Source: Branchiostoma floridae (Eukaryota > Chordata > Leptocardii > Amphioxiformes > Branchiostomatidae). Taken from it: a DNA stretch of 64,000 nt. Made by a program: the position numbers and the translations under genes. Shown piece by piece: positions 34,301 to 63,285 of this stretch; position 1 is the stretch's first letter; the number at the start of each line of letters is the position of its first letter. The stretch spans positions 186,111 through 250,110 of the forward strand of contig NW_023365793.1 in the NCBI RefSeq assembly GCF_000003815.2, written 5' to 3'. Under the pieces are notes generated by a model. That model was not told where the DNA came from. It saw only the letters and a program-made list of their open reading frames with translations, and did not search any database.

Positions 34301-35196
34301 GTTTATTGACGTTATCCGTATTTTGAAAAAAGGCAGAGCAATTTTTCTCATCTAGAGGCTTTGGGGACTCTTTAAATGAATAAAGGGTTGAGTAAAAAGA
34401 CCTTAAATTAGCCAATATTTGTAAAGGATCTTGGGTATTGTCTCCATCAGAAGTTGTTATATTTGTGACATTTTTCCTTGAATAGTTTCTGTGACTCAAT
34501 AAAAAGAATTTATTACATCTTTCCGAAAATTCCATCCAGTCAGCTTTTCGAACATAGTGCGTTTGTTCAGTTTTTCGTTCGTGTAGACTTTCAAGTTCAC
34601 TTTGAAGTGTTTTTATTTCTTCTAGTAAGGAATCCGATGGGGTGTCTGTCTCATCCAATTCCTTAGATAACTCACTAATCTGCTTAGTTAAATCTGCTTC
34701 TTTATTTGAATACATTTTATATCTATTTGATGCAAATTTGATAGTATGTCCCCTTAAGCAACACTTAAACGTGTCCCACACTGTGAGCGGGTCACTTGTC
34801 CCATTATTGTTCTCAAAAAATTCTCTAATAAATACCTCGGTTTCTTTTACAAATGTAGCATCTTCTAATAAAGTTTGATTAAACTTCCAATAATTTTTAC
34901 CTTTAGAGAATGTTGTTGTTTGAACAGAAATGCAGATGATATTATGGTCAGATTTCAATCGTCCTGCAATTGTTGCACTGACAACATTGGTGAGAAGAGA
35001 AAAGGATATCAAAAAATAATCAATACGGCTCGCTTGGTGGCGCCTACGCCAGGTAAATTTTACGGTATTTTTATGTTTGAAACGCCAAACGTCAACTAAA
35101 TCTAGCTCTAATACCATGTCTAAGATCTTTTGCTGAGCACGCGGATGATATTCTGTTGGATTGCGTCCTGCCCTATCAAGCAAGGATCTTAAAGAG
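31322..35196 (+). CDS. Exon split by the LINE insertion
   Basis: The acceptor is CTGCCTACAG|GAAGAC. Coding sequence runs to AAGGATCTT at 31433-31441, where the poly(T) of the minus-strand LINE begins. On the far side CAAGGATCTT recurs at 35181-35190 and continues AAAGAG|GTACAA. Skipping the LINE gives an uninterrupted phase-0 reading ending in SSVKDLKE. Confidence 0.65.
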
Positions 35197-40625: not shown

Positions 40626-40738
40626 ACCATGAAAGTTTATCTTCCATGTTTCAGAAAAAAAAATCAAACCGAATAAGTTAAAATCTTAAGTCAGCTTTTT
40701 ATACTAGATAGCAATAAGCCTATTTGCATTTACCAGTA

Positions 40739-40750
40739 CGCATGCGCGGA
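40739..40750. promoter_or_regulatory. NRF1-like site
   Basis: ACGCATGCGCGG differs slightly from the NRF1 consensus (YGCGCAYGCGCR). CCTTAGCAAC, similar to an RFX half-site, lies a few bases downstream. Both sit about 90 nt upstream of a candidate first coding exon. Confidence 0.4.
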
Positions 40751-40835
40751 ATTTCCTTAGCAACGAAAAAAGTGAGATAAACAAGTCGCGTTCGACAGGG
40801 CAGCGTGTGTCCAGGTTCAATGTTCAAGTGTCGAG

Positions 40836-40954
40836 ATGTTTAGCCTCTACACGGGGTTAACGGCAGCTACCCGCCTGGATCTGACGTTCCAACGATGTCC
40901 TAAACCTTGTGTACCTGAAACACCGTGTTCAGTTTCGCTTCAGAGGAATTTACG
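40836..40954 (+). CDS. Candidate orphan first exon
   Basis: An ATG (context TCGAGATGT) opens 39 codons, MFSLYTGLTAATRLDLTFQR then a Cys/Pro-rich stretch, ending in phase 2 at a strong donor (TACG|GTACGT). The N-terminus is hydroxylated, Arg-containing and free of acidic residues before position 15, as in mitochondrial presequences. No matching second exon was found downstream, where a transposase pseudogene lies. It could be a real first exon of a gene whose rest is lost or beyond recognition. Confidence 0.3.
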
Positions 40955-41574
40955 GTACGTTTTTTGACGGTATCCAAGCAAGTGTTATCACAGTTAGTGA
41001 TAACGCATGCATCCCTCCCCCATGCACGATGCCATCTATCTTTGCCGCTTACTTCTAGAATTTTTGTCCATTCTCACTACAGCCAGGTTTTTGTCTGTAA
41101 AGGTTACCAGTGTGACATAATTAGGAAATTTTAACCTACGTATGTTATAAACCGTAAAAATGTTAGCTAAAATGCACGACCTTGTGTCTTCACAATAATG
41201 AAAGCCGATATGGTCACTGTCTCGATCTCGTGATCTCTCGTGTCCGGACATGACCCCGCTTGCACTGACTGAGGAGCTTTCGTACTGTGACCAACACTTC
41301 GATTAGAAAGATAAAAAAATGTTAAGAACCAACAGCGAGTACACTAATAATCGCAGTAAATGGCTTGGATGTCCGTATTAGTATTAAACTGGTGCTTTAG
41401 GTTGAAAAATTGTACTAATAAATGTGCAAGCAAGGTCGCTGCAAGTTATGCAAACGTGACGGTGGGGAGGGGTGCATGTAGAATGTGCATTGAAGTGTAT
41501 TGCACTTTAAAGCTGTATTTTTTGTTTAAGTGTTGATATTTGCTTTAATGTTTCTTCCTTTTTTTTTTAAGGTG

Positions 41575-42460
41575 CCGGAGTTCAACATGAGGCTGTGTGC
41601 AGTGGTCGGCTGCGGTAATGGAACATATCAACCAAGGCGGTTTCAACCTTCTTGTATCAACTTTAAAAAAAGGAAGTCAGGGACATGTCCAAATAAAAAC
41701 ATGCCATCATCCGAACAAAAAAAGGATTTTGATGATGCAACTGTCCCCAACCTTTCCAGCTATGCATTTCCCACTGACAAGAAAGACCCATGGTCGGACA
41801 AAACTGTTTTTGCTCACAGATTGCCAACACTTGGGTTCGCTTCCTGTCTGTTACACTACAACTACTGATAGTATGGCCAAGTAGAGCTGCAATTTCCAAG
41901 ACCTTGCCACCACAGTTCAAGAAACAATGTAGTAGAATAAGATGCATAATTGATTGTACAGAAATATTTATTGAGAGACCTAGATCTTTAGACTTACAAG
42001 CCTCCACATGGTATGACTATAAAAACACAATACTTTAAAGCCGTTTGTAGGGATCACACCAAATGGGCACATCTCCTTTCTTTCAAAGACCTATGGCGGA
42101 AGAGCCTCTGATGTGTTCATTACCTGGGACTGTGGCTTTTTAGATTTGGTTGATCCAAATGACGTTATAAAAATAATGGCAGATAGGGGATTTCCAATCC
42201 AGGAGGACCTGATGCTGCTGAATGCAACACTAGAAATACCACCAGCAGCATAGGGGAGGCGACACATGACAAGAGACAAAGTAAAGAAAATAAAACTGTT
42301 GCAAACTTGAGGATCCGCGTAGAGCGTGCTAACAATCGACTGAAGGACGTCAAAATACTGGAGGGTACATTTCCCATAACACTCATGTCAGCAGTAGATG
42401 ACATTATCGAGGTCTGTGCTGCATTGGTTCGGAACCTGCAGCCAGACTTGGTCAAATAAA
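41575..42460 (+). pseudogene. THAP-like/DDE_Tnp_4 transposase pseudogene (ISL2EU/IS4EU or Harbinger-like)
   Basis: It starts MRLCAVVGCGNGTYQPRRF, a THAP-like zinc-finger entry, then is degenerate. A DDE_Tnp_4 core follows in shifting frames. QLLIVWPSRAAISKTLPPQF leads to RCIIDCTEIFIERPRSLDLQ (first Asp in IIDCTE), then HNTLKPFVGITPNGHISFLS, YGGRASDVFIT, IKIMADRGFPIQEDLML (second Asp) and RVERANNRLKDVKILEG (Glu and flanking helix). Frameshifts near 42030 and 42250 and an internal deletion in the N-terminal half show it is dead. Cut-and-paste DNA transposition was its function. Confidence 0.85.
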
Positions 42461-42469
42461 CAGTTGGCA

Positions 42470-43160
42470 TACAAGCCATTCAAGTTGGCAGAGATAAACT
42501 GTATTTAATTGCTGGCAGCTGAGTGCCAGTGACTTTTTTAATGATCCTTTACTGATTATGTTGTGATAGCAGGAAACTGTGACCGATGATAATAATGACA
42601 ATGTAATGAAGATGTAATAGATAAAAGTGGATCCTTTCTGTAACATGTCCTCAAATGTATTCTCAAACATTTTTCATACATTAAGTTGTGAGTTCTGTAC
42701 ATTTATGCTGCCATACTGGTGGTGATGTAGGAACATATTTTTTGGAATAAAATCAACGGGATCTTACTTTTGCCTTTGTTCATGAAGTGGCTTGTGTAAT
42801 GGGAAATGATTTAGCGAACAGACAAACTAACAAACTAGCAGTAGGAGCTCACAATAATTATGTTTTCCCGATATGGATAAAATTGCTCTTGCTGGTGTCT
42901 TCTTTTCATTTCTTTTTCTACTGTCAGGAACCAATCAGAGCTTATAACTGCCATGAACCAATCAATTTTAGAACTGCATTAGCAAATTAGCAGTATAACT
43001 ATGGAGAACCGTCCTGTGTCTTAGCTCTTCATGTGTATAAACTTCCGCCTCCTCATCCATTACGGCCGGAACGAAAATGAAAAAAAAACAAACTCCACTT
43101 ACTTCATATACTGTCAGTAAAACACAAACACACGTCTTACACCAGACTTCAAAAACTTAA
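42470..43160. other. No supported gene
   Basis: Transposon flank and intergenic DNA. No exon recognised. A GC-rich island (GCGGCGCCGCACGGCGCGGC) lies at 43242-43261, just outside the 3' end of the death-domain gene. Confidence 0.4.
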
Positions 43161-43167
43161 AATGATC

Positions 43168-43173
43168 TTTATT
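43168..43173 (-). terminator. Polyadenylation signal of the death-domain gene
   Basis: TTTATT on the plus strand gives AATAAA on the minus strand, 370 nt past the stop. Confidence 0.45.
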
Positions 43174-43542
43174 CTTAACTGACAGTTCTAGAATCTTCTT
43201 TAGAACAGGTGTACGTTCGTACCTGTCAGGTGGGAACACCTGCGGCGCCGCACGGCGCGGCGCGGAGCGCCATCTCCTTAAACAAACGCTGACACTACAC
43301 ACGCGTGACGCAACACTGGGTTGGCAAGTTATCTCCCAAAATGGCGGATTTTACCCGTCATGCATTTCGCGCCGGTAATTGCGAATAGGCTTATTAACCC
43401 TTGGGCAAAAATTTGCAAAAACGTATTGATTTTTCTCTTTCCCTAGGCCTCCTTTGCCTCCTTCAGTATTACTTTCAGCTCATTCCTGCTGCTCTTCATC
43501 CATGCCATCATGATCATCAGGTGGTTCCTCTTCATCTCCATC

Positions 43543-43862
43543 CTACTGTACATCTTTATCCCCATTCCCTTCCTCCGCCATCACAGCGACAGTTCTTGCC
43601 TTGATCTCCGCCCACTCCCCGTCGACTCTCTGAAACGAGGGCTGAATGCGGATGTCGTACTCCGTCTCCGGTTCCAGGTTCTCCAGCTGGAGGGTTTTGG
43701 TACCGTTATTCTTTATACAGGCCGCTCTGGTCCAGCAGTGTTGTCCGCCAGCAGGCCTGAGTTTGATGGTGCAGTCAGTGATGTCTTCTGTGTCTGGTTT
43801 CCATCTCACACGGATGGTGTTTGCTGTTGTCCCGTCTACTGCAAAATCCCTCAGTTTTGGAA
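43543..43862 (-). CDS. Exon 10: C-terminal fibronectin type III domain
   Basis: 105 residues: VPKLRDFAVDGTTANTIRVR W-KP, then TDCTIKLRPAG, LQLENLEPETEYDIRIQPSF and ending in an acidic tail. Trp in strand B, Leu/Tyr of the LEPETEYDIRI strand-F motif and length fit FN3. An FN3 fold after a cytosolic death domain is unusual. Stop TAG at 43543-43545. Confidence 0.85.
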
Positions 43863-46800
43863 CTGTGTTTAAGAAATTCAACAAAGATTACATCATTCAC
43901 TTTCTGCATTCCATTTCATACAAGTGGCCATCTCCACATGAAGACCACCTGGCCAATGTGATTGCTCCACGTTTGGGGGGTCTCTTAGATAATTATTTCA
44001 ATCTATGGACACCAGCATTAAGAATCCCGTCTCTAGTGACCACTCTCCACATAGAGCAGATTTAATCAAATCCCTGTGTATGTGGTCTTCTTGGACAGCT
44101 TTGTATAAATCTACAACTGTACCCAAAAGGGTATACATGGGATCATACATGATTGTACTGCACTGATTATACATGGTTCTTACCTCAGCCCATGTTTTGT
44201 AACTGTCACCTTCCCTACAGACATTTAAACTTACAGTGTACATACAAATTTCAACCTGGTAAAAACAATTGAGTTGTTTATTAAAGAAATTTCCGTGACT
44301 TTTACGATTTGTTCTGCATATAAAAACTTCATGTAATAACTTTATTGCAAACCTGATGAAGTAATTGGGGAAAGCTTACCTTGTAAGCCCATGTCCTGGA
44401 TGATGTCTGGCCGTCCCATGTCGTGTAGTATCCCCACCAGAGCCTCCTGACTGAAGGGTACTGTGGATCTCCCCCTCTCCCACTCACACAGCACCAGCTC
44501 TGTAGGGGACAGCAGCCCACTGGCAGACCTGCTGCAGCGGCTGTCAATGGCCAGGAGGGCCTGACAGGGAGATAACAGACACAATTTACTGTAAATTCAG
44601 TTACTTTTTAAGTAGAGTATGTGGAGAAGGACAACCTCAAGCCAACCTACACCATCTCTTAAGAAAAGACACTGGAGCCGCAATGTTCCCCGTTTAGGAA
44701 CTTTATTCGAACTTCAGTTACTTTTTCAGTTACTGTATTACTTCAAAGGCACAAACAGAGCCACTAATTACTTACTATACTGCAAATTCATCTACTTTTG
44801 CATTGATGCAGGGATATGAGGGGAAATAAGTTTCTGCAATCTTAAATTTGTGATACAATTTTTAGTATATTTAATATTATCAACATTGGGCATGCATATT
44901 CCCAGTGTCTTGTTGGTGGAGAGGTCATGCAAAAAAAATTCAAGAGTTCCTGTAACAGTAAAATTAACTTTATTAGCAATGAAAAAGACAATGTCATGAT
45001 AATAGACATATAAAACAAGAATGACTTATTTATTCTTTTAATTAAAAGCGTATTTCAGGCAACTTTGCATCGACTCTATCAATGAGTTCAGGTCCATATT
45101 TTGAGTAGGTGTCTTGAGCACATTATTAATTACAAATGCCTCATTGCTCTGATGGATTACATATTGGATGTAATAATACAACTAAGTGATAAAACGTGTT
45201 TATATTTCACCTGATAGTCCAGTCCGATCTTCTCCCCTAGTAATCTATAGTCATTGCCGAACATGTTGATTTGATCCATCTGGTTGCAGAATTCTTTGCG
45301 CTTGGATAGTTGCTGCAGGAATCCCTTCTTACCCCTGCCGTTCCCACAGGTGACAGGGTCCTTCAAATCATACAAGGGTTCGTCTTCCCTCCTCTGCCCA
45401 ACTCGTTCCTAGGATGTAAGGAAGAAGTGGGTAAATTTGTCTACCTCAAAAGAGAAAGAGAAGCCAAACTAGCATTGTATATTATAGAATATAGTAACAA
45501 AGCAATTCATACAGAAGAGGTTCATCAGTCACATTAAGTAAGGCAATCAGTGACTCTTGAAAACACGTAAAACACGTACGTCAAAGTTTAAGGATGGAAG
45601 GGGGATCCGCACAAGTCTTGGGCCTTGTCTCGTGATCTGGCGAGACTAGTTTATTCTGTGATCAAGGTTTTAAAGAGTCACTGATCGAAGAATTATTCTA
45701 TTGAAAGTAATTCTTGTATCCAAACGTAACATTGTATATTAAATGTCCTTGCAATTAACTGTTGTATTTTGCAGTAAAACCATCAATTATCAAAATACAC
45801 CACATGAGAAATCATGCAAAATTTGTTCAGACAAATGAAATGTTAGGATGGTCTAGTCAATATGATTATGAGCTAGTTGATAATAGTGATATGTCACAGG
45901 TTGGTCAAATTCTTGCTGTAATAATAGGAAGTGGTATTCATAATTCTTTACATCAAATCATAAAATCAATCAACTTAATTTAGATTCATTAGGTTTTACA
46001 TCTTTTTACTTTTAAGCATTTAACAGATGACAAGTGAATTCTATCTAGCTACACTAAGTCTTACAAAACGTAGTCTAAGAGAACAGTAGACAACAAGTAT
46101 GCATTTACATACGTAGAGTGAAAAATTGGTGATGATGTTGAGGGTGAGAGTTTTGATGAGACCCTGCCGAACATGGATCCGCCCATGGAACTGTTTCTGG
46201 TCAGTACTGTTGTGGCTAATGCAGATCTCATGGATGTAGTGGTCCTCCAGCTTATCAAAACTCTCCCAACGGATTTCCTGCAAGATTGATAAGAGGAAAC
46301 AGGTGTACTTTGAAATCTAAATTGTAATAAACAGTATTGTCACCGTGCCCGTGCATGGTGTAATGGTGGCATGCTTCGCCATATACCCAAAGGTCAAGGG
46401 TTGGAGTCCGCTGACATGCTCTGACTCTTTGACTTTAGGAAAGGCACTAAACATGACTTTACTCACTTTACTTTCAAATTGGTGTAAGCAAAAACCGAGC
46501 TACGGCTTGGGACGTCACTTGGATAGGACGTTAAGTCGAGGTCCTGTGTTTGGAGAGCCAAACCCTGAGCATGTAAAATAACCCACCACACATATTAAAG
46601 AAAGAGTTAATGTGTCCTTCCAAGCGTCCGAGTATATCTGTCCAGATATGCAGCTTGTACTGTTCAATACAAACCTGGAGTGTTACACCGCCATGCATTT
46701 TAGGCCAGGAAAGCAATAAAAATAACAAACATTCGAATATTTCCGATTGTGAACAAACATTCTCTTACATACATTGTAAGTACATCTTTCATATGTTCTG

Positions 46801-49800
46801 TGAGCAGCATAGTGTGCAAGTCTTCTACCAGAAAAAATTGAAACGTTTTCTACAGGAACCACAAAGACGGTTAAAGCGTACATTATAAAACATTCTTTTC
46901 ACCTTAAAAACTTCCTCTGTGATCCATCCGTTGGGTACCTCTGCATTGATTGACAGATGCTGCACCACTTGGAATGCCCGAGGAGGGCAGACTATGTCCA
47001 CTTTATCTGGGAAGTTTTGTTCTTTCTGTTAGTGGGAAGACAAAAGTCAGACAATGAAGTTGTTTGCATCAGTATATAGTAATATTACTAAGTTAACGAA
47101 TTACATTATACATATGCTAACTTGCCCTTAATTATTTGGTATTAAATTATTAATTTGACTAGTTGACCATACAAAAGTCATTGAATAGTGCTTTTTTTCT
47201 TGCGTCTAAATCTTGCATGATATAGTTACCTTTTACAAAACTCAAAAGTCAGAAGCATGCACACAGAAAAAAATATATTTAGGACTATAAATGCTAAAAC
47301 AGTGAGCAAATTATTATTAAACTGTCAGTGAGCAGAGCACTTTGGACTAATGCTTTGTACTTTTACAGTAGCCTTTTACAGTTTTATTTTACATACCAGG
47401 TACATGTATCTGATATTTATGAAAATTTTCTCTGGTACTCAATGGATCATAATGACCGGCCAGCATGGTTCTTCACGCTTCGTTGAAAATTTTAAAACAT
47501 CTTGAGATTTATACCAAGGATCTTCAGATTTTGTATTAAATCTTGAGATGTTTTGACTTGATCTTTTGCCTCAACCTTGAGATGTTTTTGAAAAATCTTG
47601 ATGCTTCACATAAATCTTGAGATATTTTGAAAGTTGCTTTGAAAAAGTCCCAAATCTTGAGATATCTGGGAAAAAATCTTGAGATCATTTCAAGATTGTC
47701 TCTGAAGATCTCAAGATTGTCAGTCTCAAAAAAATGTCATGATTTACCTCAAAATCATGCGATATTTTGCATTTTCATTGATGCTTGAAGACCCCTGCTG
47801 GGGTCATTATGATATCAGAAGTCGGGTAACAGAAGTACTTGCGGAAAGCTGTAAACGGTTCAAAGTGCTCTTCTCAGTCCAATAATACTCTGCTCGCTGT
47901 GTAAAGGAGGTTACGTAAAGATGACAATGGAGTATTGAAAAGCAGCAATTCAAAATAATTCCAATTTTCCCAAATTTTGCAGGTGGTTGTGGAATGTAAC
48001 TTTTGATAAATGATAGCCATTAATGTTGAAGATGAAGATTTTGATCATGATGTAGTTATATTTTGGATGAGATCAAGGTTTATTATAAAGAATGTTCATA
48101 CCACTTCCTTAAAGGACACCCCTTGTTGGTAGATCAGCACATACACAATCCAGGTCTGCCCTAGCTGGGGCTTGGCAGCGAGGATGCCTATGTTCAACTT
48201 CACTCCCTGGAAACATACAAATGTCTTCATTTAGCATCAGGCTAAAGGAGATTTTCAATATCATATGCAATCAATAACACAATACCAAGAGAAAGCCAGT
48301 GTCAAGAATATATAATTATCAGTTTTATTAACATTTAATCTGATAATTCCATCGGGTGCCATAATACTGCCAAAGTACATGAATTGAAAGTGATTTAAAG
48401 GGAACTTTGTTCCGATGCAGCATCAGTAATTCCAACATTTATACATTTCAGATATTCAGATGTTCAAGACAATCTTAAAAAGGCCACTATATTTAGTTAT
48501 AAGGATCATGTTTTTGATGTGATGGTCAATGGCACCTGGTGGAATTATGAGAGAAAATGTTTAGCATTGTTACACATAACATAATGACATTAGGAAAAGC
48601 ATCTATTATTCATCTTTCTCACAAATTGGAAAACCGATAGTTGGCCAGAACTAGATATAATATCACACACAAAAGAACTTACTAATAGATATTCCCAATG
48701 CTTGACTAAAAATCTCATCATACAATACACAAAATACTTTTTGGATATGCAAAAAAAAAGGCTCACCCCCTGCAGTTCCTCTGTGCACCTTCTGGCTGCC
48801 CACTCATTTGAATAGAGATTGACGGTACCACCTTCGTCTGTGGATGGACGAGACCCACTGCTTTCCTCACAACTGACACTAGGCTTTGGAGGGAGGGGGG
48901 GAACAGGCTCATGTACGGGAGTGGGAGGGAGTGGCCTATCAGGAATGGGAGGTCCATTGAGATCTAGCGGAGGGTCGATATGTTCATGGTGACTGAAAGC
49001 CTCCATATCTTCAGGAGGGAACACCATTGCTGGGGCACTAACTTGGCGCTGAAGAACATGATGTCTGTTCCCTTTGGGCAGGTGCGATTCACTTCTCAGT
49101 CTTCTCAGACACCTGTGACCTGGTGTTTTTCTTCCTTGAGGCGCTGACCCGGGCAAGCAGATCATCTTTCCGTCAGAAAATTGGAAGATACTGTTCCTCC
49201 TGTCGTGTCGATACGAGCTCACCAAGTTGTTCATCTCCTCTCCCCCCTCGTTGCAACCGAAGAAATACGACTGTTGGGAGACCTCGAACCTGAACCCTAA
49301 CTGCAAGTGGCTGAAATTATCCAGTTCCTTCAGTTTCACAACCATTGGGAGCTGACGCATCTCTCTCTTTATGGTGGCTATCTGCCCCCCTCCTCTCCTG
49401 TTGACGTCTTTCTGTAGTTTCTGCTTGTATCTCTTGACGTCGCTGATGTGGGAAGGGAAGATGACAAGTCGTGCAGGCCTCTCCGGAATACTCTCGTGGG
49501 GGGCAATGTCAACGTCAAATGGATGCATGTCCTTGAATGGTCCTGTACAACACGACAAAGAAAAGGAACATTATAAAGACAGGCTGATCAGACATTTCCT
49601 ACCAAAACTCAGCCTCCACTATCAAGTCTAATTAAAGTACATAAGCCACAATACTTGCAGATTTGTAATGAAGATTCCTTCATCCTTTCTAACTTAAAAT
49701 CTGCGTGCCTTGAACGTTAGAGTGCAAGTCTTTGTCGGCAAATTTACCAACGTTGCGCATGGATGATATCAATTATTTCTGGTAGATCTAACTTTGGCAG

Positions 49801-52800
49801 GGTCAGATGAATTTTGAGGCGATCAAGACAATGTTACTTGGTGAGAATTGTGGGTACTGAAGTCACGTGTAACTTATCGCTCGTGTTCAATTCATCAGCA
49901 TTTTCTCTATAGTGGCCGCCTGTCTATAGTTGCCAAATTTCCCTAGTCCCTTGAGTATCCACTTTAGACACAGGTTTGACTGCAGAGGCGGCGGCAGCAA
50001 ATTTCGTTTGTGGGGGCCAAATATTGGTGATAGATTTGTGAGCTTGTCACGTCCCGTGTTCTGCCTCATGCCGAGTGGAGTTCATGTCGTGAGATCACAG
50101 ACTGCCTACCGTGACGACGGACCCTTTCACTATTCTCATAAGCCTACACGATGACATGGACCAAGCATTGATTACAATCTACGCCTGGCGCGGCGCTGGG
50201 CATGATCGTGCTTCTGACCTATCTGGTTTCTTCTAGTTGGATGCACTATATGTCACGAGTACAGCGGCCATATCACATTACTTCACTGGTAAGCTTCCGT
50301 ACTCTTATTAGTGAAAAAGAAAACGTGATAATGGTTGGGGAATGGGCTAGTTTAAGTTATTACACGGGTGTCGTCATACTGCTGGATGAATACGTGGGCA
50401 ACACGTGTTGTGCCCTGCGTATATTGTTATAGTCCTGTTGGAACTTTGCACGAAAATGTAGGTCGTTGGGTTTTACGGAAGAAGGAAAAAAAAACAGAAA
50501 ATAGGCGCGAAATCTGCTCAGACTTGGGCGCTTACATCAGCTTGGCCAAGTTGGTGAATACACCAGCCAAACATCTGTTTTCAATTCGTTGCAAAGTAAG
50601 AAAAATGCAAGTTGAATATATCTCATCAGTGTATCGTTGTCACTGCGCAAAAGTTTTAGTTGCAGAATGTCATAGAACCATTCATTTATACATTAATTAG
50701 TTTGTTCACTCTTTTATTCATTCGTTTGTTTATTCATTCATTCATTCCTTTATATATTCTTTCATTCACGACATGGCGCGGGGCTGTACAAGTGATAGAT
50801 AGCGCATCCAACTAGATGTAAGCAGACAGGTCAGACGGAAGGATTTGAAGTGTCTAGTCTACGAGTTGCAAGATGCACGGAGAAGCTTTCAGAAAACTAC
50901 AACTCGACAAGGAAGGAGGAAGGAGGGGGGCAGAAATACCCCCCCCCCCCACACACACACACACGACATTCCTAAACATGTATAAAATGTGTGTCTACTT
51001 ACAGCATACCACTATCACATTAATGATCATCAATTCACTAGGAAAAAAAGAAATAGCGTCTAGCAGCGAATCAATGTGATAGCACCCCCTATCACATTAG
51101 TAACTAGTCAGCTTCCGTACAACTAAGTTATTACATGGATGTCGTCATCTTCTGGATGAATACATGGGCAACATGTGTTGGGCCCTATGTATACAGTTAT
51201 AATCCTGTTGGAACTTTGCACGAAAATGTAGGTCGTTGGGTTCTACGAAAGAAGGAAAACGACAAGAAAAAAGCGCACAATCTATACAGACTGGGGCGCT
51301 TACATCTGCTTGGCCAAGTTGGTGAATACAACAGCCATACTGTTGCAGCCATACATCTGTTTTCAATTGGTTGCAAGGTAAGAAAAAGGCCAGTTGAATA
51401 TATCAGTGTATGATTGCCTTTTCTTCTAAGTTTGTAAAGAATTGAAAACAGATGTATGGCTACTCTATTCATCAAGCAGAAGTAAGCGCCTTATTTTTTG
51501 TAAATTTTGCGTCTATTTATTGTCTTTATTGTCAAGAAAACAAGTTCTCTCGCCACATATACATGGGCTTCTTCCGTAAAACCCAACGACATATATTTTC
51601 GTGCAAGTTCCAACAGTATCATAACAGTATACGTAGGGCCCAAGACATGTTGCCCATGAATTCATCCAGCAGCATGACGACATCCGTGTAATAACTTAAA
51701 CTGGCACTCTCACCAATCCTTATCACGTTTATTTTTTTTTACTAGAAGGTGATGTTACGAATGTATCTATTAGTGAAATAATGTGATAGCAACCCCTTAT
51801 CACATTATTTTTCTAGTAAGAGATGTCGGTCTATTAGTGAAATAGTGTGATAGCAACCCTTTATCCCATTATTTTACCAGTAAAAGGTTAAAAGATTGGT
51901 CTTAATTTGTGTCTACTAGAGAAAAAATGGGATAGCACCCCTCTATCATAACTCTATCACATTATTTTACTAGCATATAGACAATTATTGAAATAACCGC
52001 TAAAAACCAAGTTATCACAACTTTTCGAACTATCACGTTTTCTGTCCTAAAATACTTTTCAGGGCTAAATAAATGTGTTGAATAATGAAGTCAATGACAG
52101 CAGTACTTTTTAAATGCCGGAAATGGTAAAATGGTAAAATTGCAATCTTCTTACCTTATGAATATATTTCCTAAATTTTCTTACCATACATAAAACATTA
52201 TTGATATGTAATCTGGTTCACAAATCACATAAAGACACACTTTCTAGAAGAGGAACAAAGACATGAAAATCATCAAACCTCCATTTGAGTCCATGTCTGA
52301 TCCAGACTGTGATGCACATTTACCATCTGTTTCTCCGGGTGATGCTGATAGGGGCAATGGAGATGATGTTCCCGAGCTTCCGGGTGTGGTTGGAGGACCA
52401 TTAACCTCTACCACCACCACATCCCTGGTACCTTAATGATGAAGAACAGAAAGTCAAGACATATTCCACTAGACCCCTCAAAGCGTGAGTCATATAATGA
52501 AGATTCGGATTAACCCTATCCAGACTGGGCTTTATGGGCCTTCCCTGGCCTTGGGGGGGGGGGGGGGTGGCTTTCAGAAACCCGTTGGCATGGCAACACG
52601 AGAAATCATAAACTTACCTAATTTTTTAAAGATTGTTGCCAACAATATTTTAGGAAAACTCCCCAAGTTTGGTTGTTCTAGCACAAGCCATTTGGGAGCT
52701 ATGGGAGGTCAAAGTTGGCGCGGGCACTTTCAGCCCCCCCCCCCCCCCCCCCAGTCTAGATAGGGTTAAGGACATCACTCGTTGTATATTGTGAAACTAT

Positions 52801-54634
52801 GTTTTACCAAATTGTGTTTCCGGTCATTAACCAAATGAAATGTTTGCACATTACATGCACCTGCTGAATGTTGACAACATACCGTTTGTGGCGGATGCCC
52901 CGTGCATTTCGTCGACAACCTTTTGGGACGGATTCGTAATTGCAATGGCGAGGTTGACACGCACATCCTTCCCACGCTTTGCATAATCCGGCAAGAACGT
53001 TTCCAAAAAGACTTCCTTAAAGGTTCCATCCTTGACCATTTGGATAAGTTGCAGTCGATCTTCCTCAGTTGGTACTTTCATCTTCAACAAAATGCAACCC
53101 CTCGTAGCGCCCTCAATTTCAACATTAGCTCCGCCCCGCGAAGCCATTCTCCTGGAAAACGAAGGCGATCTACATCTCCCAGCTTCTCAAATATGTCATC
53201 TTCGTCACGGTCATCCATATCCAGATCGATGCAAGCATTTACAAAATCTACAGGATAAAAGATGCAAGTTAACATGACTTATGAATATCATGATAATTGT
53301 CTACAGCAATTTACATACAAAACCTTGTTAAATGCAGGTATGACATAGATACCGGGTGATAATGACACAAGGGGGATAGATATTCTTAGTTTGAAAATAA
53401 GTGAAACATAAATGTATTTCTGTATACATCATTATAATCCTACGGCCCACTGGGGTAGCATAGAAAAATAAATCCAAATTCCTGTTGAAAAAAGTAGTAA
53501 TGTAAATGTAACTATATCTGGCTAGTACAAATAGCAGCTTTTTAAATTCTTACCAGGGTTTGAGTCGGCGGAATCCTCACGATTCACCACCTTAGTCACG
53601 TTCTCGTCTCCAATCTGTATCCCGTTACAACTGTCAAACTCAAAGTCCCAGAGCACAACTACCTTATCAACGTTTCCTATCCGTACATTGCTGATAGAGG
53701 AATGCAGTTCTTTGCTGCTAGTCTGGGAGGGGGGTTCAGAAGCAGCCGTCGACGACATGTCTGTATCTCGGCTTGATGACGGCAGACAAAGCAAATTGTT
53801 TTTTCCCAGTAGTATTGCAGATGAATCTTTCACTGTCGCCTTCTCTTTCACAACGACTTCACGCGCTTGATCAATCTGAACGGTGGCACCATCTTTGATA
53901 TCAAACGTACGCTTCGACGGATCCGTCACGATCACTTGTCCCTGATAGGTTTTACTTCCCCCATTACAACCCTGAAGTAGGTATGAGGCTAACTGGCTAC
54001 ATGGAGTTTGTTGAAGGTCTCGACTGCCACGTGCATTTTCGTGCTTTTTTGTTTGGGCTGTCACCGGAGTATCATCAACATTATGGTTAGTGCCAGTTTT
54101 GTCTCCATTCTCCACATGGCCTTCGCCAAATACCTCTTTGGGTGATGTGCACGAGAAGGTGTCAGATGTTCCATTTTCCACACCTAGCACGGTCGTTTTG
54201 TTATCTTCCTTTGTGCAATTCCGATTTTGCAAATCTACGTGAGATGCGAGAAAGCTGCTGTCCTTTTGAACATTAATTGCAGGAGGTTTCCCCCCACTAT
54301 CTTCCTTTTGGTCTACCGGGGAGTCATACACATCTTCGCCATTACTTACATTGCACAGAAAGCCGTTAACTCTCCTGTCGTTGTGTTTAGTAAACTCTTG
54401 GTTTTCAACTAGCATGTCGCTGTCACCATTGTCTCTTTGAAGCATTTTGATGCTCGGTTGAAGACAAGCACTGTCTGTGTTAGCAACCTTTGACTCGGTG
54501 AGGTCTACTACTTGATAATCTTTAGTCAGTGTGAAGCGTGAAAATGCTTCTTCAATGTTCCTTTCCTTCTTAATCTCGTTTGGGCAATTAGCACTCAAAA
54601 TGTCCGCAGACGAGAGGGAGCCACCAGACGCCAT
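43543..54634 (-). CDS. RHIM-like / TRADD-N-like / UPA-like / death-domain / FN3 adaptor protein
   Basis: Ten minus-strand exons chain in phase: 54634-53554, 53247-52883, 52431-52279, 49542-48767, 48206-48102, 47025-46903, 46277-46113, 45408-45211, 44560-44380 and 43862-43543. They encode about 1155 residues once a one-base deficit in exon 2 is allowed for. Approximate residues: 1-360 acidic and Ser/Thr-rich, ending in two RHIM-like motifs (317-325, 339-349); 399-482 TRADD-N-like; 534-680 unknown; 724-755 proline-rich; 790-925 UPA-like; 950-1045 death domain; 1050-1145 FN3. No signal peptide or membrane segment is evident, so it is probably a cytosolic signalling adaptor. The start ATG has A at -3 and G at +4. 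I know of no described protein with this order. Confidence 0.8.
44380..45408 (-). CDS. Exons 8-9: death domain
   Basis: Two exons (45408-45211 and 44560-44380) meet at DYRLLGEKIGLDYQ / ALLAIDSRC. The stretch reads MFGNDYRLLGEKIGLDYQ (helices 1-2), SPTELVLCEWERG (helix 4-5; SPT--hh--WE as in UNC5) and FSQEALVGILHDMGRPDIIQ (helices 5-6). The W and flanking residues match the death-domain core. Death-domain pairing with partners such as FADD- or MyD88-like proteins is inferred. Confidence 0.85.
46113..48206 (-). CDS. Exons 5-7: UPA-like domain
   Basis: Three phase-0 exons (48206-48102, 47025-46903, 46277-46113) encode VKLNIGILAAKPQLGQTWIV, CPPRAFQVVQHLSINAEVP, then YIHEICISHNSTDQ and IHVRQGLIKTLTLNIITNF. 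The last part matches the UNC5/PIDD UPA pattern (hHCTFSLE--S----L-h-V-Q------h-hNI). In those proteins UPA sits directly before the death domain and regulates it, as here. A preceding ZU5 domain was not recognised. Confidence 0.55.
46345..46610 (+). mobile_element. tRNA-derived SINE in an intron of the death-domain gene
   Basis: The head GTGCCCGTGCATGG is followed by an A box TGGTGTAATGG (46356-46366) and a B box GGTTGGAGTCC (46399-46409) about 33 nt apart, as in RNA polymerase III promoters. The body (GGAAAGGCACTAAACATGAC, then GGGACGTCACTTGGATAGG) lacks tRNA sense. The element lies in the intron between exons 6 and 7, opposite to the gene. Confidence 0.6.
47446..47813. mobile_element. Short inverted-repeat element with AATCTTGAGAT core repeats
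   Basis: ATCATAATGACC at 47446-47457 is complementary to GGTCATTATGAT at 47802-47813. Imperfect pairing extends inward for another ~25 bp (GGCCAGCATGGTTCTTCACG against the inverse of GATGCTTGAAGACCCCTGCT). The interior carries about ten degenerate copies of AATCTTGAGAT(G/A)TTTT, some inverted as ATCTCAAGATT. It lies in the intron between exons 5 and 6. A target duplication is not clear. Confidence 0.75.
48767..49542 (-). CDS. Exon 4: unknown domain and proline-rich linker
   Basis: It encodes 258 residues. The first 150 (PARLVIFPSHISDVKRYKQK, then VVKLKELDNFSHLQLGFRFE and YFFGCNEGGEE) look folded, with alternating strands and helices, but match no family I recognise. The last 70 include PPIPDRPLPPTPVHEPVPPL followed by PPKP, several PxxP motifs suited to SH3 binding. 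Confidence 0.75.
50340..50650. repeat. Solo arm of the foldback element
   Basis: The sequence from GTCGTCATACTGCTGGATGA to TTTTCAATTCGTTGCAAAGT matches 51140-51400 with substitutions and small indels, in the same orientation. Confidence 0.8.
50935..50965. repeat. Poly(C) followed by (CA)n
   Basis: Eleven or more C followed by (AC)8-9. Confidence 0.95.
51066..51980. repeat. Four small palindromes AATGTGATAG..CTATCACATT
   Basis: Near 51073-51097, 51783-51807, 51843-51870 and 51923-51972 a stem like AATGTGATAG / CTATCACATT encloses a C-rich loop (CACCCC or CAACCCC). They flank the foldback element and may be its outer termini or a separate small element. Confidence 0.7.
51120..51700. mobile_element. 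Foldback element: two ~265-bp inverted arms
   Basis: The left arm (51125-51395) runs GATGTCGTCATCTTCTGGAT, GGAACTTTGCACGAAAAT, TAGGTCGTTGGGTT, TTTTCAATTGG. The right arm (51430-51695) is its inverse: GAATTGAAAACAGATGT, AACCCAACGA, ATTTTCGTGCAAGTTCC, ATGACGACATCCGTG. The spacer is about 30 bp. No coding capacity. The arms would form a long hairpin RNA or cruciform. It lies in the large intron between exons 3 and 4 of the death-domain gene. Confidence 0.85.
52514..52765. mobile_element. piggyBac/Kolobok-like MITE with TTAA target duplication
   Basis: TTAA (52510-52513) precedes CCCTATCCAGACTGGG; CCCAGTCTAGATAGGG is followed by TTAA (52766-52769). The terminal repeats match at 15 of 16 positions. 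Inside, a G run (about 52554-52567) and a C run (about 52735-52752) are inverted partners. No coding capacity. TTAA duplication and CCC ends fit piggyBac best; Kolobok also uses TTAA. It lies in the intron between exons 2 and 3. Confidence 0.85.
52883..53247 (-). CDS. Exon 2: acidic linker and TRADD-N-like domain, frame broken in a G run
   Basis: The acceptor enters with IDLDMDDRDEDDIFEKLGDV then FPGEWLRG. The next conserved stretch (VEIEGATRGCILLKMKVPTE, DRLQLIQMVKDGTFKEVFLE) is in another frame. One extra G in the run of four (CCCC at 53134-53137 on the plus strand) would join them and also restores the exit phase needed by exon 3. Read as given, translation stops at 53084. The hydrophobic strand-helix pattern (G-CILLKM--P then MVKDGTF) resembles the TRADD N-terminal domain and related invertebrate domains; that call is tentative. 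Confidence 0.65.
53554..54634 (-). CDS. Exon 1: N-terminal region with tandem RHIM-like motifs
   Basis: It encodes 360 residues from MASGGSLSSADIL. Most is acidic, Ser/Thr/Asn-rich and likely disordered. Near the end SNVRIGNVDKVVV (motif 1) and NGIQIGDENVTKVV (motif 2) lie 22 residues apart. A weaker ATVQIDQA precedes them at about 250. The core of motif 2, I-Q-I-G followed by D-x-N, fits the RHIM consensus (V/I)-Q-(V/I/L)-G and the related fungal amyloid motifs. By analogy with RIPK1/RIPK3/TRIF it could drive amyloid-type homo- or hetero-oligomers. Confidence 0.75.
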
Positions 54635-55274: not shown

Positions 55275-55785
55275 TTCCACTCCAGAAGGGAGTATTGTTT
55301 TCCAGTAGATAATGTGTCAATGAATACATAATCAGCCGAATTTTGTGGAATTCACCTTGGGATGAATTATGCGACGTGTGTTTTATAAAACAATAATGAC
55401 ACTCACTAAACCCATGCAGACCCTACCTATGCATTCCTTACACGCATAGACACTTTGTTTATCGTACATATTTTCGGAATAAATGAGGTACGCTAAGCAC
55501 ACCGAGAAGGCAAATTGCTCATAAGATAGCAAAGAATACAAGAACAAGACAAGATTTATTAGCGAACCTGAAATTAGTTTTGTGACCTTACCTAAAAGTT
55601 TTGCATTGTATTCAGCCATAGGATTAATTCAATTAGAGGGTACTTGGGGAGTTTAGTAGAACATTGAATGCTTTTGAGGCATGTGGAGCAACTGGGTACT
55701 TTATCGTATAATGTGAAGTAGTATACAGTTATCACTTCCTAAAATTTATATCTATCGGAAAATAACACTCCTGTGTGGAGTGGAA
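55275..55785. mobile_element. MITE with ~30-bp terminal inverted repeats
   Basis: TTCCACTCCAGAAGGGAGTA then TTGTTTTCC at 55275-55303 is complementary, with a few mismatches, to GGAAAATAACACTCC then TGTGTGGAGTGGAA at 55757-55785. The interior is AT-rich with no coding frame. A related end occurs near 39009. Target duplication not evident. Confidence 0.7.
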
Positions 55786-55789
55786 TGCC

Positions 55790-56930
55790 CATTTAATTGT
55801 ACACATGAGTCATTATGTATTAGTAAAGCATCTGTGAAGTTCACTTAATATATTCTTCAAGAGCTAATGAGAAAACCTTTTATAAGACAAATTGATATAA
55901 CTTTGGAATTCAATATTTGAGTTGAAACTAAACTACGCAATGTGTTTCATTTTCCACTGCACATGTTAAATGTCTGGCAGATGATATACCGTTACGCCCA
56001 TATTATCTGAGTCCCTCTTATTATATGAACCTATTTATTCTGAACAGCCACCAAGTTTCCATAACAACTATTTATTTATTGTTTTACTTTATTGGTTAGG
56101 TCAACCTCTCTCTCTTTGCAGCCAGGGGCTGCATTGGAAGGAGCGTACAATAGGCGGGGCTAAATCGCAAGGGTCTGAAATGGCAGCCTGTATACAGCGC
56201 CTAATGATCTCAATGTAACAGTGATTTCTCGCCCCAGTTGCTGCAAAGGACTGTAGGTTTTAAACCACATACAACGGGTAGAGCCTCTACTCTTAACGAT
56301 AAGTGCGTTGGGTGTGGCTCTCCGCAAACACGGGACCTCCATTTAACGTCCTATCGTGGGACGTCCCTCTACATTATGTATTTTCAAGACAAAATTAAGT
56401 ACGATTGATCTTTGATATAATGGATTCCAAAATGGACTCCATATTGGATTTGGAATAATCCCAACCCAATATGGATTTTTAAAACTTTGACTCACTCCCA
56501 TACGATAATGGACACTTCCGGAAGACCCTATGCAAAATGGATTCTTCATTGTTACACCTTTTCCTCCTGTAGTGCCAGGGCTACCTCTATAATAAGACAA
56601 GAACCCAAAATATACATTTTCGGTATGAAAATTTCCAAAAGTTCACACAAAATTTATGATTTTAAGGTAGTAAATGGCAAAACTGTGAAGGAAGTCCTGT
56701 GGGCACATTTCCTATATACCGTGATACTGTGATTTTCAAAGGTTGAACTGGGTCTAGAACTGTAGGTTTAGTTTTACCCGGTCGTCAGGGAAGCATTCGT
56801 CATCTAAATGTACACATAGCTATATACCTGCTGACTAAACTGTCGTATGTTGTGGGGCGTCAATGAGGTTGCCACGACAGGTTGAAATCCTCTCGAGAGC
56901 GTAGTGCAGAAAAAACGATCACTGTTACAT
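55790..56930. other. No supported gene
   Basis: Near 56417-56480 several ATGGATT and CCATATTGG motifs form short inverted pairs. The segment 56745-56800 resembles part of the 1.2-kb unit downstream (AGGTTGAACTGGGTCTAGAAC). No exon recognised. Confidence 0.4.
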
Positions 56931-59704: not shown

Positions 59705-62700
59705 AAGGCGCATCATCGCGTATAAGATGTTGTGCATGGCCGTTCCTACTGGTGTATTACACTATACATATGGTCTAAAATGCCCTGTAGTATTGTAGCA
59801 GGTCTTGCCGCTACAAGGGTATCGGGGCATGCCACTGCTCGTGTGCGGGATGACCTGGGCTTTCCGCCGTAGAAGATATTGTGGTTGATCGTTACGACTG
59901 GTGTGACATTGTACGGATGGTCTTAAATGCCCTGTAGTATTGTAGTATTGTAGTAGATCTTGCCGCTGTGAGGCTAGCGGGGTACACCGCTGCTCACGTA
60001 CGGGGCGACCAGGCCTTTCATGCCGTAAAAGATATTGAGATTGACCGTTTCTATTGATGTATTGCATTATACGTATGGTCTAAAATGCCCTGTAGTAGTG
60101 TAGTATTGTAGTAGGTCTTGCCGCTACGAGGGTAACGGGGCACGCCACTGCTGGTGTACGGGACGACCTGGCCTTTCAGCCGTAGAAGATATTGTGGTTG
60201 GTCGTTTCGACTGGTGTGACATTATACGGAAGGACTAAAATGCCCTGCAGTAGTGTAGTATTGTAGTAGGTCTTGCCGCTACAAGGGTATAGGGGCATGC
60301 CACTTCTCGTGTACGGGACGACCTGGGCTTTCAGCCGTAGAAGATATTGTGGTTGATCGTTTCGACTGGTGTGACATTATACGTATGGTCTAAAATGCCC
60401 TGTAGTAGTGTAGTATTGTAGTAGGTCTTGCCGCTACGAGGGTAACGGGGCACGTCACTGCTGGTGTACGGGACTACCTGGCCTTTCAGCCGTGGAAGAT
60501 ATTGTGGTTGGCCGTTTCGACTGGTGTGACATTATACGGAAGGACTAAAATGCCCTGTAGTAGTGTAGTATTGTAGTAGGTCTTGCCGCTACAAGGGTAT
60601 AGGGGCATGCCACTTCTCGTGTACGGGACGACCTGGGCTTTCAGCCGTAGAAGATATTGTGGTTGATTGTCTCGACTGGTGTGACATTATACGGAAGGAC
60701 TAAAATGCCCTGTAGTAGTGTAGTATTGTAGTAGGTCTTGCCGCTACAAGGGTATAGGGGCATGCCACTTCTCGTGTACGGGACGACCTGGGCTTTCAGC
60801 CGTAGAAGATATTGTGGTTGATCGTCTCGACTGGTGTGACATTATACGGAAGGACTAAAATGCCCTGTAGTAGTGTAGTATTGTTGTAGATCTTGCCGCT
60901 ACGAGGGTAGCGGGGCATGTCACTTCTCGTGTACGGGACGACCTGGGCTTTCAGCCGTGGAAGATATTGTGGTTGGCCGTTTCGACTGGTGTGACATTAT
61001 ACGGAAAGCTAAAATGCCCTGTAGTATTGTAGTATTGTAGTAGATCTTGCCGCTTCGAGGGTAGCGGGGCATGTCACTTCTCGTGTACGGGACGACCTGG
61101 GCTTTCAGCCGTAGAAGATATTGTGGTTGATCGTTTCGACTGGTGTGACATTATACGGAAGGACTAAAATGCCCTGTAGTATTGTAGTATTGTAGTAGGT
61201 CTTGCCGCTACGAGGGTAGCGGGGCATGTCACTTCTCGTGCACGGGACGACCTGGGCTTTCAGCCGTAAAAGATATTGTGGTTGGCCGTTTCGACTGGTG
61301 TGACATTATACAGAAAGCTAAAATGCCCTGTAGTATTGTAGTATTGTAGTAGATCTTGCCGCTTCGAGGGTAGCGGGGCATGTCACTTCTCGTGTACGGG
61401 ACGACCTGGGCTTTCAGCCGTAGAAGATATTGTGGTTGGCCGTTTCGACTGGTGTGACATTATATGGAAGGACTAAAATGCCCTGTAGTATTGTAGTATT
61501 GTAGTAGGTCTTGCCGCTACGAGGGTAGCGGGGCATGTCACTTCTCGTGTACGGGACGACCTGGGCTTTCAGCCGTAAAAGATTTTGTGGTTGGCCGTTT
61601 CGACTGGTGTGACATTATACGGAAGGACTAAAATGCCCTGTAGTAGTATGGTATTGTAGGAGGTCTTGCCGCTACATGGGTAGCGGGGCACGCCACTGCT
61701 GATGTACGGGACGACCTGGCCTTTCATGCCGTAAAAGATATTGAGGTTGACCGTTCCTACTGATGTATTACAGTATACGAATGGTCTGAAATGCCCTGTA
61801 GTAGTGTAGTATTGTAGTAAGTCTTACCGCTACAAGGGTATCGGGGATACACCGCTGCTCACGTACGGGGCGACCTGGCCTTTCACGCCGTCAAAGATAT
61901 TGAGGTTGACCGTTTCTACTGATGTAATACCGTTATACGAATGGTCTGAAATGCCCTGTAGTAGTGTAGTATTGTAGTAGGTCTTGTCGCTACAAGGGTA
62001 TAGGGGCATGCCACTTCTCGTGTACGGGACGACCTGGGCTTTCAGCCGTAAAAGATATTGTGGTTGATCGTTTCGACTGGTGTGACATTATACGAATGGT
62101 CTGAAATGCCCTGTAGTAGTGTAGTATTGTAGTAGGTCTTGCCGCTATGAGGGTAGCGGGGCACGCCACTGCTGGTGTACGGGACGACCTGGCCTTTCAG
62201 CCGTAGAAGATATTGTTGTTGGTCGTTTCCACTGGTGTCACATTATACGGATGGTCTTATTAAAGTGTCCTGTAGTATTGTAGTATTGTAGAATGTCTTG
62301 CCGTTGTAAGGCTAGAGGGGCACGCCACTATTCACATACGGGACGACCTGGCCTCTCTGCCGTAAAAGATACGTGTTTGGCCTTTTGGACTTGAGAGGCA
62401 TTATACACACTCTAAAATGCCCTGTAGTATTGTAGTATTGTAGTAGGTCTTGCCGTTGTAAGGCTAGAGGGGCACGCCACTATTCACATACGGGACGACC
62501 TGGCCTCTCTGCCGTAAAAGATACGTGTTTGGCCTTTTGGACTTGAGAGGCATTATACACACTCTAAAATGCCCTGTAGTATTGTAGTATTGTAGTAGGT
62601 CTTGCCGTTGTAAGGCTAAGAGGGGCACGCCACTATTCACATACGGCGGACGACCTGGCCTCTCTGCCGTAAGAGATATCGTGTTTGGCCTTTCGGACTG

Positions 62701-63285
62701 GTGTGACATTATACAGATGGTCTAAAATGCCCTGTACTATATAGTATTGTAGTATTGTAGAAGGTCTTGCCGTAAGGCTTAAGAGGGTAGCCAGTACTAT
62801 TCACATACGGGACGACCTCGCCTCTCTGCCGTAAAAGATATCGTGTTTGGCCTGTCGGACTGGTGGGATGAAATATAATGGATGGTCTAAAATGTTCTGT
62901 AGTATTGTAGTAGTGGGTCTTGGCGTTGTAACACCAGCGGGGCACGCCACGGCCACTACGGGACGACCTCGCCTCTTAGCTGTAAGAGTTATCGTGTTTG
63001 GCCCGTCGGACTGGTTGGATGCCATTATACGGATGGTGCGAAATGTCCTGTAGTATTGTAGTATTGTAGTACATGAAGTAGGTTGTTGCCGTTGTAAGGC
63101 TAACGGGGCACACCACTGCTTACGTACGGGGCGACCAAGCCTTTCATCGCGGCCGTAAAAGATATCGGGTTGACCGTTCGGACTCGTGTATTACGTTATA
63201 CAAAATGCCTGAAATGCCCTGTAGTAGTGTAGTATTGTAGGTCTTGCCGCTACAAGGGTTACGCGGGGCACGCAATCGGTTACAA
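59705..63285. repeat. ~154-bp satellite, about 23 copies
   Basis: Each unit contains AAAATGCCCTGTAGTA, GTATTGTAGTAGGTCTTGCC, GTACGGGACGACCTGG and GTGACATTATACGG. Copies between about 60230 and 61650 are nearly identical, while copies at both edges diverge, as expected when homogenisation acts in the array centre. Two variants differing in GGGCATGCCACTTCTCGTG versus GGGCACGCCACTGCTGGTG partly alternate. No open reading frame is conserved. Confidence 0.95.

Follow-up and report, generated by a model that had tools for sequence, protein, structure and literature searches.

A putative RHIM-TRADD-N scaffold gene with a death-domain tail in Branchiostoma floridae

Gene model on the minus strand

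This work concerns a ten-exon gene model on the minus strand of a 64,000-nucleotide (nt) stretch of Branchiostoma floridae DNA (the window, in which all positions are numbered). We lean toward considering it a member of a small scaffold family, in which a shared head, made of RHIM-like motifs and a TRADD-N-like domain, precedes interchangeable tails, with the window gene probably arising by head-tail fusion. The window sits on contig C235 of an assembly of 513 Mb in 431 contigs, all of which was searched; other contig labels (C2, C11, C19, C135, C148 and so on) refer to the same assembly.

The model opens with an ATG at 54634 and closes with a stop codon at 43543. An initial annotation of this DNA had proposed ten phase-consistent exons, and ten exons with GT/AG at every splice site are indeed present; exons 1 and 3 to 10 join into a single open frame (nine of the ten are open and in phase), but exon 2 is one base short. 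The features of the gene are as follows.

53554..54634, minus strand: exon 1, encoding an acidic N-terminus that closes with two RHIM-like repeats in tandem; phase-1 donor
53780..53890, minus strand: RHIM-like repeat 1, with the degenerate core AILLGKNNLL; placed by paralog alignment and by similarity to repeat 2
53585..53695, minus strand: RHIM-like repeat 2, with the core IQIGDEN (V/I-Q-V/I-G tetrad); Pfam RHIM 14.4 bits, below the cut-off, and PDB profile
52883..53247, minus strand: exon 2, a helical lead and the TRADD-N-like domain, with a frame break at 53174-53159; from comparison of paralog exons
53070..53108, minus strand: beta2-turn-beta3 of TRADD-N (by homology), with GC where the conserved uS motif sits; 4 of 4 aligned loci
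52279..52431, minus strand: exon 3, a DVVVVEV linker; likeness by eye to the C135 and C11 exon that follows TRADD-N
48767..49542, minus strand: exon 4, a possible PTB/IRS-like stretch and a linker rich in proline; its acceptor is also conserved on C2 and C11
48206-48102, 47025-46903 and 46277-46113, minus strand: exons 5 to 7, a UPA-like segment of 35, 41 and 55 amino acids (aa), all phase 0; from exon partition
45408-45211 and 44560-44380, minus strand: exons 8 and 9, an UNC5-type death domain; Pfam Death, UNC5B in PDB
43543..43862, minus strand: exon 10, a fibronectin type III (FN3) domain and the stop codon; Pfam fn3
49703, no strand: point at which the DNA ceases to resemble the C2 copy of exons 4 to 10, within the intron between exons 3 and 4; from local comparison
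49703..52278, minus strand: remainder of that intron; from 50213 to 51968 it contains repeats of 41-133 nt, both direct and inverted

Exon 1 is open across 360 codons and ends in a phase-1 donor. The start of exon 2 (365 nt) stays in the frame of exon 1 and its TRADD-N part lies in another, with one base missing between 53174 and 53159. The homologous exons measure 366 nt in C135 and 369 nt in both C11 and C148, and all are fully open; acceptor and donor are homologous in the four loci, with phase 1 conserved. Because exon 2 is one base short, the assembled frame of exons 1 and 2 stops ahead of TRADD-N, and the chain is discontinuous in the assembly. The missing base may be a sequencing or assembly error, or a null allele. 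A 22-nt intron within exon 2 was considered and rejected, being too short and failing to restore the frame. Skipping of exon 2 would also keep the frame, as exon 1 joins exon 3 in phase. A transfer RNA scan found none, and PADLOC gave zero matches for three window proteins.

The RHIM-TRADD-N head and its family

The evidence for a head family comes from its recurrence in the genome. Queries with the TRADD-N segment of the window and with that of C11 retrieved the same loci, at least eight in number (C235, C148, C135, C11 and four on C19). A RHIM-type core was found on the same strand, at most 2 kb upstream of TRADD-N, in 8/8 loci among the matches listed, compared with 0/8 on the opposite strand, 0/8 downstream and 0.5-2% of resampled sequences per locus. 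The core pattern used in resampling allowed Leu and was chosen after the loci had been seen; with the strict published tetrad, V/I-Q-V/I-G..N, the upstream count was still 8/8 among the matches listed. Background DNA in the test with the looser pattern gave five matches, three of which belong to the head family itself. Since the four C19 loci are near-identical duplicates, these loci amount to five independent cases.

The organization of the head is shared by the window, C135 and C11, in which two RHIM-like cores, then TRADD-N and then a short linker lie on exons flanked by phase-1 introns; the C148 head has no recognized linker exon. Exon 3 of the window is assigned to the head because it resembles, by eye, the exon that follows TRADD-N in C135 (clearly) and in C11 (at its start only). 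The tails differ from locus to locus: one exon encoding RING, B-box and NHL domains in C135, a DUF294 nucleotidyltransferase with tetratricopeptide repeats behind the head in C11, and two death-domain exons in C148 (2.9e-9, over the cut-off, and 0.0042, below it). Order, strand and closeness suggest that head and tail belong to the same transcript in these paralogs. To our knowledge, TRADD has no RHIM. TRADD carries TRADD-N and then a death domain, and C148 is nearest to it in plan: with two RHIM cores followed in succession by TRADD-N and death-domain exons, it would in effect be a TRADD with RHIM, if it is one gene. At the C19 loci, the open reading frames that follow TRADD-N have the stretch TSSDSGLGS in common, which we take to resemble a DSGxxS degron.

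In the window, the core tetrad is present as IQIG in repeat 2; repeat 1 reads ILLG, and alignment with the paralogs indeed shows it to be degenerate. The window, C135 and C11 each carry the core twice, each time in a 37-residue unit that opens with a hydrophobic stretch. The similarity between units 1 and 2, cut by hand, was equalled in 0/5000 shuffles for C135 and C11 and in 2/5000 for the window. Two cores in shorter units were found in C148, and one core in the C19 loci. When proteins were scanned with Pfam RHIM (cut-off 20 bits), C135 (25.4 bits) and C11 (21.8 bits) passed, with two stretches each, while C148 (17.4 bits) and one C19 locus (13.1 bits) stayed below. The genome-wide scan (E up to 1) gave two places, C135 (21.0 bits) and C148 (20.2 bits), with C11 absent from the listing; both pass the cut-off and adjoin the present TRADD-N exons, just upstream of them. 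That scan is not exhaustive, since no RIPK1-like place was listed. Counting both scans, C135, C11 and C148 all exceeded the cut-off at least once. Searched against the PDB, a four-head profile gave six matches, five being RHIM entries of RIPK3 or RIPK1, each a weak match (E 0.7-1). Full exon 1 was its own sole match in the genome at E 0.001 or better, and a C135 RHIM query recovered it as third and last match (E 0.18). No kinase or TIR match was found in the scanned parts. The RHIM-like motifs proposed by the initial annotation are thus retained as two tandem units, with a window score below the cut-off and support via paralogs of the same genome.

The TRADD-N-like domain is likewise held through the paralogs, with moderate confidence: we accept its predicted identity via the family, not the window alone, whose own Pfam score is below the cut-off. 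Family scores for TRADD-like_N, all under the cut-off of 23.7 bits, were 12.2 for C148, 16.7 for C135 and 21.3 for C11, the best of the family. Cys occasionally takes the place of Ser in the uS motif of TRADD-N, according to the text of Kaur et al. (2021; PMC8195603). A GC pair is invariant in the beta2-beta3 turn of the 4/4 aligned loci and matches the tiny residue followed by Ser, or occasionally Cys, that is expected there. With hhalign, the four-member profile reached a probability of 72% (P 3.3e-5) against five GC-type Pfam matches picked from ten, and 69% (P 4.4e-5) against all ten; the window domain alone reached 11% (P 0.0028). A single-sequence structure model (predicted local distance difference test score, pLDDT, 66) contained the strand-turn-strand and helices of the RRM-like fold expected for TRADD-N, with the last strand unformed. 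The profile gave one irrelevant match in PDB (E 0.48).

The head can be placed among known systems. Lineage-specific TRADD-N expansions in marine animals, including Branchiostoma and other cephalochordates, with fusions to TRIM, UPA-ZU5 and FIIND, are described in the text of Kaur et al. (2021; PMC8195603). Like the present head family, those proteins fuse TRADD-N to variable domains; the constant partner there is usually DED, whereas in the present family a RHIM-type core takes that place, with two copies in four of the loci. Nowhere in the text of that article does the word RHIM occur. Lancelet RIPK1 carries a RHIM, according to the text of PMC12119088, and RHIM orthologues are known in Branchiostoma according to the text of a review (PMC9444067, citing Kajava 2014 and Yang 2011). 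The V/I-Q-V/I-G core is common to the head and to RHIM adaptors (RIPK1, RIPK3, ZBP1, TRIF and the Branchiostoma RHIM proteins). Unlike these, the head has two spaced units, a second conserved hydrophobic stretch and an adjoining TRADD-N. Its tandem RHIM-like unit invites comparison with the two-repeat fold of HET-s, by analogy. No description of a RHIM-TRADD-N head was found in the literature searched, a scope that left out Kajava 2014, Yang 2011, supplements and papers under other licences. Fusions of TRADD-N, and proteins with a RHIM in lancelets, had each been described before.

The tail and its copies

The death domain and the FN3 domain announced by the initial annotation both pass Pfam cut-offs. 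Exons 8 and 9 matched Pfam Death at 3.3e-8 (34.0 bits, cut-off 22.6), and exon 10 matched fn3 at 5.3e-9 (36.6 bits, cut-off 25). By sequence comparison, the death domain is UNC5-type, its nearest solved structure being UNC5B (4.8e-5 with a single sequence, 3.3e-10 with a four-row profile). The PIDD-type signalling that had also been proposed is rejected: the nearest death domain is that of UNC5B, and no Pfam match to leucine-rich repeats or ZU5 was found in the exons scanned (exon 1, the TRADD-N part of exon 2, and exons 4 to 10). The tail resembles the cytoplasmic region of UNC5 (ZU5-UPA-death domain) in its type of death domain and in a possible UPA before it; unlike UNC5, it has no ZU5 match, and FN3 follows the death domain.

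The UPA-like segment fared less well. Pfam gave zero UPA matches in the window scans, and a genome scan (E up to 1) listed nine UPA places, the window not among them. A Pfam-recognized UPA gene on contig C3 has phase-0 exons of about 35, 49 and 62 aa, against 35, 41 and 55 aa, also phase 0, in the window; when exons 5 to 7 were aligned to this gene, the score for the segment as a whole did not exceed that of shuffles. As a sequence-based assignment, UPA was unsupported in four tests. The place before the death domain and the similar exon partition hint at UPA, whose identity is unproven. A PTB domain in exon 4 is possible, if weakly indicated by IRS/PTB Pfam matches at E 0.06-0.24, below the cut-off; the exon 4 profile had 0 matches in PDB, and its structure model was unusable (pLDDT 36). 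Exon 4 also contains a proline-rich stretch, RPLPPTPVHEPVPPLPPKP (48937-48881), lacking in the shorter C11 copy; we presume that it could be an SH3 ligand.

Copies of the tail elsewhere in the genome give it a firmer footing. Besides the window, exon 4 is present in the genome on C2 (86%) and C11 (49% over 110 residues), three places in all. On C2 the tail is complete (seven exons, 4 to 10), with splice sites identical to those of the window. The C11 copy is more distant: boundaries agree for exons 4 to 8, and exons 9 and 10 are only partly aligned. Of another relative on C2, only parts of exons 7 to 10 were recovered. No first exon was recognized for the C2 or the C11 copy. Between window and C2, exons 4 to 10 showed a synonymous divergence (dS) of 0.20 and a non-synonymous divergence (dN) of 0.048, hence a dN/dS of 0.24, with 0.04-0.10 in exons 7 to 9; both copies have thus been kept as coding. 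Shared splice sites and this ratio indicate that the exons are real and coding. Exons 4 to 10 are conserved and under purifying selection.

The DNA similarity to C2 also spans the downstream flank (76-88%); on the other side it runs to 49703 and stops 161 bp before exon 4, in the intron between exons 3 and 4. This pattern fits fusion by duplication and also a contig misjoin. Inserted in the block shared with C2, at about 40712-43396, is a high-copy transposon-like element with many genome copies at 96-98%.

Other parts of the window hold repetitive DNA. Long open frames of a long interspersed nuclear element (LINE)-type retrotransposon, reverse transcriptase-like by eye, occupy 31828-35252 on the minus strand; a repeat of about 520 bases lies at about 55275-55796, with dozens of copies at 94-97% among the matches listed; and a tandem array with a period of 155 and 19.1 copies extends over 59786-62754.

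One fused gene or separate parts

Several points weigh against a fused RHIM-TRADD-N gene in the window. Gene structure is known here from genomic DNA alone, exon 2 carries the frame break, and the link between head and tail, paralogs included, is drawn only from order and strand. The window scored 13.9-14.4 bits for RHIM (two scans; cut-off 20) and 11.8-12.3 bits for TRADD-like_N (cut-off 23.7), and 3/2000 shuffles equalled its own TRADD-N score. The genome scan with Pfam TRADD-like_N (E up to 0.1) listed 83 places, 78 of them over the cut-off, and none of the eight head loci was among them, which marks these as a diverged group. Foldseek, run with the modest single-sequence TRADD-N model, gave 44 weak matches, none of them TRADD. 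Amyloid formation by the RHIM units, and their partners, are predictions from sequence. Lastly, as the C2 similarity ends inside a repeat-rich intron, a misjoin is possible.

Among other explanations, the one that survives best, while still unlikely, is that two genes lie side by side: a RHIM-TRADD-N gene of exons 1 to 3, the end of which would be unseen, and a separate gene of exons 4 to 10 (PTB-like, UPA-like, death and FN3 segments) with its own first exon. The tail copies on C2 and C11 speak for it, as no RHIM-TRADD-N head was found in the 8.1 and 7.5 kb upstream of them, respectively; C2 was hit by neither TRADD-N search among the matches listed, and its similarity to the window ends shortly before exon 4, as described above. 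However, the C2 sequence examined includes 1,030 N, so the absence of a head there is incomplete. Moreover, the acceptor of exon 4, which both copies conserve, requires an upstream phase-1 exon, and exon 3 of the window, lying on the same strand, has a donor of that phase. Three paralog heads likewise precede same-strand coding exons.

A decidedly less probable explanation is that the head of the window copy is a pseudogene through its frame break, the tail surviving by another promoter or by frame-keeping skipping of exon 2. The shortened exon 2, compared with three longer paralogs, the in-frame junction of exons 1 and 3 and the degenerate RHIM repeat 1 are in agreement with this; yet, with the exception of one position, the frame is open both in the 360 codons of exon 1 and in TRADD-N. 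The least probable is a misjoin, which would have brought together, in the assembly alone, a head and a tail of separate genomic origin: contig C235 is 398 kb long, the join falls within a repeat-rich intron and exon 2 already has a base-level problem, but order, orientation and phase suit a working gene.

Fusion of a family head to a duplicated tail accordingly keeps our preference, and the "one lancelet protein" of the initial annotation is likely, of an architecture that is itself unusual; it is unproven, because the tail exists elsewhere with no head seen nearby. From a mechanistic point of view, a duplicate of the separate gene of exons 4 to 10 would have come behind a head and been joined to it via compatible phase-1 introns. 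A trigger would nucleate the RHIM amyloid, perhaps together with lancelet RIPK1, and TRADD-N may recruit a partner such as TRAF. The local concentration of tails would then set the output, which for the window gene may be the clustering of death-domain partners. We regard as evenly poised the wider proposal that lancelets use tandem RHIM and TRADD-N as a portable amyloid module, spliced to varied effector tails, the window gene being a recent product of such fusion.

In vertebrates it is separate proteins that connect RHIM amyloids with TRADD complexes. If the proposal is true, amyloid nucleation and TRADD-type adaptors would be combined as a module in an invertebrate chordate, with tails swapped, and a single amyloid signal could serve several outputs. 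Such a family would also make it possible to test amyloid signalling directly in an animal of this kind.

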